Assembly (NCBI GenBank): GCA_021776095.1
Contig: JAJFGO010000015.1
Coordinates: 1 to 64,000, forward strand
Reading direction: 5' to 3'
DNA: 64,000 nt
From: Kiloniellaceae bacterium
GTDB lineage: Bacteria > Pseudomonadota > Alphaproteobacteria > Kiloniellales > J153
Position numbers and translations under genes: made by a program. Of this stretch, positions 42,811 through 49,227 are shown piece by piece. Within the stretch, counting starts at the first letter, position 1. The number at the start of each line of letters is the position of its first letter. The notes beneath the pieces were generated by a model. It had not been told where the DNA came from, did not search any database, and worked only from the letters and a program-made list of their open reading frames with translations.

Positions 42811-42896
42811 CGTCATTGCCGGACTTGATCCGGCAATCCATCGAAGTCCGAGACTCGGATTTTCCATGGACCCACGGGTCAAGCCCGTGGGTGACG
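42811..42896. repeat. REP/BIME-like intergenic palindromic repeat
   Basis: cgtcattgccggacttgatccggcaatcca...tggacccacgggtcaagcccgtgggtgacg; second copy at 46915-46997. Confidence 0.85.
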
Positions 42897-46914: not shown

Positions 46915-46997
46915 CGTCATCGCCGGACTTGATCCGGCAATCCATCGCGGTCCGAGTCTCGCACGTCGATGGACCCTCGGGTCAAGCCCAAGGGTGA
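46915..46997. repeat. REP/BIME-like intergenic repeat (second copy)
   Basis: cgtcatcgccggacttgatccggcaatccatcg...tggaccctcgggtcaagcccaagggtgac. Confidence 0.85.
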
Positions 46998-47064
46998 CAA
47001 AAGACAAAGAGAGTAGACACCGGCAAGATTTTGAAATCGATTCACTCTCTATGGAATCGAAACC

Positions 47065-47904: not shown

Positions 47905-48052
47905 TCTCGCCCCCAACGGTTTTCCGGCCCGCGATTGGGGACCGTGCGGCATCCTACACAAATGGCAGGGACGGTCAAACGGGTCGCGGAGGCTGACAAA
48001 GGTCTATATTCCCGGCCCGCTCGTGTGGATGTTCAGGTGTTCAAGGTCGAAC

Positions 48053-48769
48053 TTAGCGGCCGTTTCTTTGTGAGTTCCGATCTGCTGCTCTGGCATCAGT
48101 AGCCAAGCCAAACCAATACCTTGCCCGACCTAAGTTGATAGCAACGACAGTCCTAATTGCGTGAGCCCAATATAAACGCCTTGCTGTTCTCGCTCCAAAA
48201 TTCGGCTGCCAGAGGGTACGAAAATCTTCGTCAAGGTCCCCTATCACATGCTCACGATCTCGCTTCGAAAGCCCTGCATGAAGAAGTATCTCAGCTCGTT
48301 TAGGCGGATCATCGTTGCTGACTTCATTGTCAGTAATTTTTCTTATTCTGCCTAGTTTTCTCCAAGAAACCATTAGCGAGAGCACCTTCACTCCGAAGGT
48401 GAAAAAAACCTTTGACGGCAACCACCCCTTTTCTATTAACTCCTTTTCTAGTAATTTCTTTTCTATTAACTTCTTGACTTCTTTTACGCTGTCCTGGATT
48501 TCCTTCTGAATCACTTGCTCCGAAATTTTCTTCTCCTTCTCTCGGAGATCTCGGAATCCAGCTCCAGGGTCTATTATTACACGTTCGCTGAGAATGCCGT
48601 CAGTGGAATGTGTAAGAAAATTTCTAATGTCATAGTGTTCACCTGGTTTTATCTTTTTGGCATTGGTAAAAATCTCCCTTATTAAACTCTGGCTCGACAT
48701 TCCTGTCTTATAAGCTGCGTTTCTTTTGTTCGATTTTTTTGCTTGGGGGTTATGTCTATTTCTTTTCAT
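48053..48769 (-). CDS. Protein with charged coiled-coil N-terminus and permease-prefix-domain-2-like C-terminus
   Basis: PPKRAEILLHAGLSKRDREHVIGDLDEDFRTLW...ARRLYWAHAIRTV; directly downstream of padR. Confidence 0.6.
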   Translation of the reverse strand: MKRNRHNPQAKKSNKRNAAYKTGMSSQSLIREIFTNAKKIKPGEHYDIRNFLTHSTDGILSERVIIDPGAGFRDLREKEKKISEQVIQKEIQDSVKEVKKLIEKKLLEKELIEKGWLPSKVFFTFGVKVLSLMVSWRKLGRIRKITDNEVSNDDPPKRAEILLHAGLSKRDREHVIGDLDEDFRTLWQPNFGARTARRLYWAHAIRTVVAINLGRARYWFGLATDARAADRNSQRNGR

Positions 48770-48776
48770 CTCGGCC

Positions 48777-49109
48777 TCACGCGATACCTGGGGTCGGGAC
48801 TATACCCTGGCGCATTCTATCGACGACCCGTAATGAGCGGTCGAGTGCAACTTGGCCAGGCGCTTCAATTTGATAGTAGCGCTTTGCGCGCCCGCCACGT
48901 TCCGGGGTTGCTTCACCACGGTAGGAGGAAACGAAGCCCTTTCGTTCCATTCGTTCGAGCGTCGTATAGATCGCGCCAACCGATACGTCCCGCATCGCCC
49001 GCTCAGAGATTTCCCGACGAATGGTAACTCCGTAGGCGTTGTTTCGAAGTCTGAGAAGCGCCAGTAACACCATTTGCTCGAATTCCCCGAGATTTGCTCG
49101 CTCAGTCAT
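48777..49109 (-). CDS. PadR family transcriptional regulator
   Basis: LGEFEQMVLLALLRLRNNAYGVTIRREISERAMRDVSVGAIYTTLERMERKGFV. Confidence 0.93.
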   Translation of the reverse strand: MTERANLGEFEQMVLLALLRLRNNAYGVTIRREISERAMRDVSVGAIYTTLERMERKGFVSSYRGEATPERGGRAKRYYQIEAPGQVALDRSLRVVDRMRQGIVPTPGIA

Positions 49110-49227
49110 GTCCGTTGCTCACATCAACTGCTACAATGTAGAAGATATAGCTTGTGCGGCACGGCGATTCAAGACCCACGTAAGCTTTTTGCGCAATTTA
49201 GGAACTTTTCTGACATAAACTTGCGCC

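Follow-up and report, generated by a model that had tools for sequence, protein, structure and literature searches.

The window, i.e., the whole stretch of 64,000 nucleotides analysed here, begins at the start of a contig of 105,796 bases. It carries two collinear copies of a gene block, the first from window base 1 and the second from 47419, with 73-84% nucleotide identity between them. The promoters of fabI and yihY are divergent, and in the second copy only, a two-gene insert sits between them (Table 1). The first gene of the pair encodes a PadR regulator, as had been proposed in a preliminary description of this DNA, and its score against PF03551 is 50.7 bits (cut-off 27). Against padR_acidobact (TIGR03433) it scores 39.4 bits, below the NCBIfam cut-off of 101.8. 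The second gene encodes a partner protein of 238 aa. This partner had been described as being in an overlapping orientation to PadR, but both genes run in the same direction on the minus strand, with the partner 7 bp downstream of PadR.

Table 1. Features of the two-gene insert and of the adjoining fabI promoter region (window coordinates).
Feature	Position	Strand	Evidence or remark
fabI promoter-like site, TTGACC-16-TAGGAT	47951..47978	-	Sequence conserved across the family; left intact
Partner, 238 aa, solo prefix-domain protein without TM segments	48053..48769	-	ORF, NF038404 match, hydropathy, homologues of the same layout
Permease prefix domain 2, residues 155-208 of the partner	48146..48307	-	NF038404, 35.8-38.4 bits, cut-off 35
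Lys/Glu-rich long helix, residues about 70-113 of the partner	48431..48562	-	Helix predicted at modest confidence; not conserved in relatives
PadR-type repressor, 110 aa, first gene of the pair	48777..49109	-	PF03551, E=1.8e-13
Palindrome CTACATTGTAG, candidate PadR operator, directly downstream of the predicted -10	49131..49141	-	Exact CTACANTGTAG unique in the genome
Predicted PadR operon promoter, TTGAAT, 17 bp, TATATC	49144..49172	-	Shuffle p about 0.085 (window alone)

Between fabI and yihY, copy 1 has ~170 bp and copy 2 has ~1.3 kb. The short gap (the empty site) is also present in G001, G003, G004, G005, G006, and G007, a comparison that leaves out G002, where yihY was not found, and G008. 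Since the gap is short in copy 1 and in the relatives, the long gap of copy 2 is an insertion, and the earlier description of a precise insertion confined to that copy was correct. The insert is ~1.2 kb long and runs from roughly 47980-48000 to 49205. Its flanks are conserved on both sides, and neither the fabI promoter-like site nor the conserved sequence before yihY was damaged by it. The AT-rich composition noticed earlier is also evident in the GC profile: 47985-49205 has a GC content of 0.479, compared with 0.63 in the window as a whole, and the value falls to 0.394 where the first two thirds of the partner, counted from the N-terminus, are encoded. We did not see a flanking repeat of the transposon-end type at the insert. 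Horizontal acquisition of the two-gene pair as an insertion is the best explanation.

The duplicated block is at least 20 kb in length (window 1-20613 and contig 47419-72813), and its diverged copies lie ~47 kb apart. It may be an ancient duplication, an import from a related species, or the product of a chimeric contig. The assembly, in 122 contigs with an estimated contamination of 4.44%, is possibly a metagenome bin. Contamination or binning could in part be responsible for the large duplicated block, although the insert and its flanks share one contig. The window also holds an 85-bp repeat (42811-42895 and 46915-46998, 86% identity), which is probably a dispersed intergenic repeat.

The partner protein and its prefix domain

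The C-terminus of the partner had been likened to a permease prefix domain, and the match is specifically to permease prefix domain 2 (NF038404). The scores are just above the cut-off (35.8 bits with NCBIfam, 38.4 bits in the genome search), and the partner is the sole NF038404 match in its genome. A Pfam search of the partner, a PDB sequence search, and searches of defence and phage family libraries returned no match. A fold search of the PDB gave no significant match, either with the model of the full partner or with the domain alone, and a search of a literature library for the permease prefix domain found nothing. AlphaFold predicts three helices in the domain region, with 10-residue blocks at a pLDDT of about 80-90 over the core, and models most of the partner outside this region at low confidence. 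In a profile comparison, the alphaproteobacterial prefix domains matched those of Bacteroidota and other proteobacteria with a probability of 99.1% (E=1.4e-18).

In proteins named permease prefix domain 2-containing transporters, the domain is N-terminal on a membrane permease. The partner has a different layout: the domain lies near the C-terminus, no TM segment is predicted from hydropathy, and the next gene is fabI rather than a permease. With no TM segment predicted, there is no support for the suggested membrane-sensor module. Hydropathy gives a borderline TM segment in only one of eight solo proteins, that of G440, and the C-terminus of the window partner is the least hydrophobic of the set. 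The prefix domain had further been described as fused to a Lys/Glu-rich coiled coil. A long helix is indeed predicted in that region, but the N-terminal halves of the solo proteins differ between relatives, and the Lys/Glu-rich helix is thus not a conserved part. Within the partner gene, three near-repeats spaced by 15 bp (48428-48475) encode a five-residue repeat of Lys, Glu, Leu, and Ile. We did not find a recognisable domain in the N-terminal "input" region of the window partner.

Solo pairs and the wider PadR family

The module of PadR and a solo prefix-domain protein is a recurring type, and is not unique to the window genome. A survey of the order found the NF038404 domain only in the window genome (G000) and in G007, and a survey of the class, a sample with one genome per species, found it in 5/387 genomes. 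All matches of the two surveys lie in ORFs of 181-248 codons that carry the domain at the C-terminus and have a PadR gene directly upstream. A search of the class sample with PadR itself showed that the close relatives (at least 38% identity) all precede a prefix-domain-type protein, which is solo in G422, G120, G300, and G064 and a multi-TM fusion in G203 and G236. The partner in G064 was assigned by eye, as it has no match to NF038404 or another family model, and the prefix-domain match in G236 was likewise made by eye. A PadR gene followed by a solo prefix-domain protein is therefore known from seven genomes of different genera, from distantly related members of the Alphaproteobacteria (the window genome, G007, G440, G422, G120, G300, and G064, one of them called by inspection).

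The solo pairs sit at unrelated loci with different flanking genes. No third conserved gene recurs beside them, and no conserved permease gene was found near the solo relatives that were read. Because no permease follows in these relatives and the solo layout recurs, the partner is not a frameshifted permease, and the earlier view of a pair that stands alone is upheld. A search of genome contigs with the full-length partner found no relative. A six-row alignment of the domain was too poorly conserved throughout to serve as a query, and a search with a three-row alignment returned two loci only, the same as those already known in G007 and G440. Plasmids and phages were searched for the partner, and viral contigs for the domain, with no result. 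The solo protein of G300 (L008 1426-1962) has an N-terminus that is weakly zinc-ribbon-like, which suggests different input halves in different members. In G473, nearly the whole of a 72-aa ORF (L022 1450-1668) is prefix domain (43.2 bits); no PadR gene was found near it in the available stretch, which stops at the contig end.

Elsewhere, close PadR relatives precede prefix domains that are fused to FtsX permeases, to a MotA/ExbB-like protein, or to other multi-TM proteins. PadRs up to 54% identical to the window PadR are encoded on Bacteroidota plasmids, where they precede large ABC permeases, and prefix domain 2 is N-terminal in all four of the plasmid permeases read. In a tree of 27 PadRs, those linked to prefix domain 2 form one group whatever the layout of the partner (support 93/87, 100% of bootstrap trees), although many inner branches are weakly supported and the proteins themselves are short. 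The linkage requires a single change on this tree, and DUF1700-linked and background PadRs fall outside the group. In the proteobacterium G553 (L024 985-1716), PadR is followed by a fusion of prefix domain 2 with a MotA/TolQ/ExbB-like membrane protein, an unusual output for the domain. On the Anabaena cylindrica plasmid pANACY.02 (L054 3920-4967), PadR precedes a 217-aa hypothetical protein that is hydrophobic over an N-terminal stretch and vaguely prefix-domain-like at its C-terminus, although the model does not detect it.

Promoter, candidate operator and proposed regulation

The promoter predicted for the PadR operon is by itself not significant against shuffles (Table 1); the same layout in G007 has a shuffle p of 0.005. 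The palindrome just downstream is a candidate operator. The 4.98 Mb genome contains a single exact CTACANTGTAG, located at the predicted PadR promoter. G064 and G203 also have the exact motif at their PadR promoters, and G007 has it there with one mismatch. The copy in G203 is the only exact one in that genome, and in G064 one exact copy, at PadR, is among the matches listed. Exact CTACANTGTAG is absent from the PadR promoters of G120, G300, G422, G440, and G236, of which those of G300 and G440 have other palindromes in a comparable position. Being palindromic does not by itself set the window promoter apart (145/300 shuffles were as good), so the case for an operator rests on the shared motif. 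Palindromes with one mismatch are not enriched genome-wide (16, versus 37 for the reversed control).

From the gene pair, its domain, its recurrence, and the palindrome, we infer a self-repressing PadR with a cytosolic prefix-domain partner that would relay a signal to it, much as in HAAS-PadR dyads (probability roughly 0.6). The PadR dimer would repress the promoter of its own operon by binding CTACATTGTAG at the transcription start, as suggested by where the site lies, by its uniqueness, and by the fact that some relatives conserve it. The C-terminal prefix domain 2 of the partner would be the docking and signalling domain for this class of PadR, a role to which the consistent gene coupling and the co-grouping of the PadRs point. 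The variable N-terminal part would determine the cytosolic input, and in the presence of that input PadR would be released or reshaped by the prefix domain and the operon derepressed. In relatives, the same PadR-prefix pair is wired to other membrane proteins or to FtsX permeases; the window pair lacks such an output, which would leave a closed self-regulating pair. A bolder reading, which we hold only tentatively, is that solo pairs are mobile, self-contained signalling units of one operon each, with one operator in the genome and a cytosolic sensor half that can be exchanged. Not being attached to a transporter, such a unit would amount to a minimal two-protein switch with itself as the sole target.

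The small size, AT-richness, and probable autoregulation of the pair, its patchy distribution at unrelated insertion sites, and the lack of a third conserved gene would also suit a toxin-antitoxin-like or selfish pair, with the partner as an active protein that PadR restrains while repressing the operon. In G007, the pair adjoins two genes that by eye resemble a HigB/HigA-type toxin-antitoxin pair (L025 2412-3133). We nevertheless consider this unlikely, for the shared domain is a transporter prefix and not a known toxin fold, the partner is without a defence or phage family match, and PadR groups with the PadRs of transporter operons. Somewhat less likely again is a detached prefix domain that would act, in trans, on a membrane transporter with its gene at another locus. 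The N-terminal position of the domain in large Bacteroidota permeases would fit such a role, but with no other NF038404 domain in the genome there is no obvious partner permease of that class, and solo relatives lack a conserved permease gene nearby. Decay of a PadR-permease operon after loss of the permease is largely refuted. In its favour, the partner stop lies only ~50 bp from the fabI flank, the domain score is low, and the C-terminus is the least hydrophobic of the set; against this, the solo layout occurs across genera, in seven genomes, where the reading frames are intact and the domain is preceded by a long N-terminal extension. Least probable of all is that the insertion matters mainly by read-through from the PadR promoter into fabI, which would place fatty-acid synthesis under PadR: PadR, the partner, and fabI share the minus strand, on which we found no terminator-like site where the partner gene ends, but fabI keeps its own promoter-like site and the pair precedes unrelated genes elsewhere.

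The value of a self-repressing PadR with a relay partner is that the pair separates the regulatory prefix domain from its namesake transporter, which makes the role of the domain testable. It is easy to express each of the components, namely the soluble 238-aa partner, the 110-aa repressor, and the one palindrome. Should the pair bind, the "prefix" of many PadR-linked permeases would be explained as a PadR docking and signalling domain.

Comparison with known systems

The window pair shares with the prefix domain 2 transporters (PadR and ABC/FtsX-type permeases of Bacteroidota) the same domain and the same PadR lineage directly upstream. It differs from them in that its domain is C-terminal rather than N-terminal, and in having a variable N-terminus in place of a permease or any TM segment.

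HAAS-PadR dyads have been proposed as an alternative to two-component systems, in which the helical HAAS domain would relay the signal of a fused sensor to a stand-alone PadR (PMC11237479). The window pair likewise couples a helical domain, with a predicted three-helix layout, to a stand-alone PadR. However, the window partner has no Pfam match to the HAAS families DUF1700, DUF1129, or DUF1048, helix 3 of its domain lacks the GxP motif of the kinked three-helix HAAS layout, and its PadR falls in a group separate from the DUF1700-linked PadRs. The prefix domain 2 profile scores 20.7 against that of DUF1700 (150 shuffles gave 9.6 +/- 2.1, with a maximum of 17.1), a similarity between sequence profiles that is suggestive. 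As this similarity is only suggestive and the GxP motif is absent, we do not file prefix domain 2 as a HAAS domain.

Control of the own operon is known from HAAS-PadR members of Listeria, where LstR and LltR mainly regulate the operons that encode them (PMC6624303), and is what we propose for the window pair. The LltR (Lmo0599) operon is a close parallel, in that a PadR mainly controlling its own operon is accompanied by a partner with a helical domain (PMC6624303). The LltR partner is a multi-spanning DUF1700 membrane protein, followed by a DUF4097 gene, whereas the window partner is soluble.
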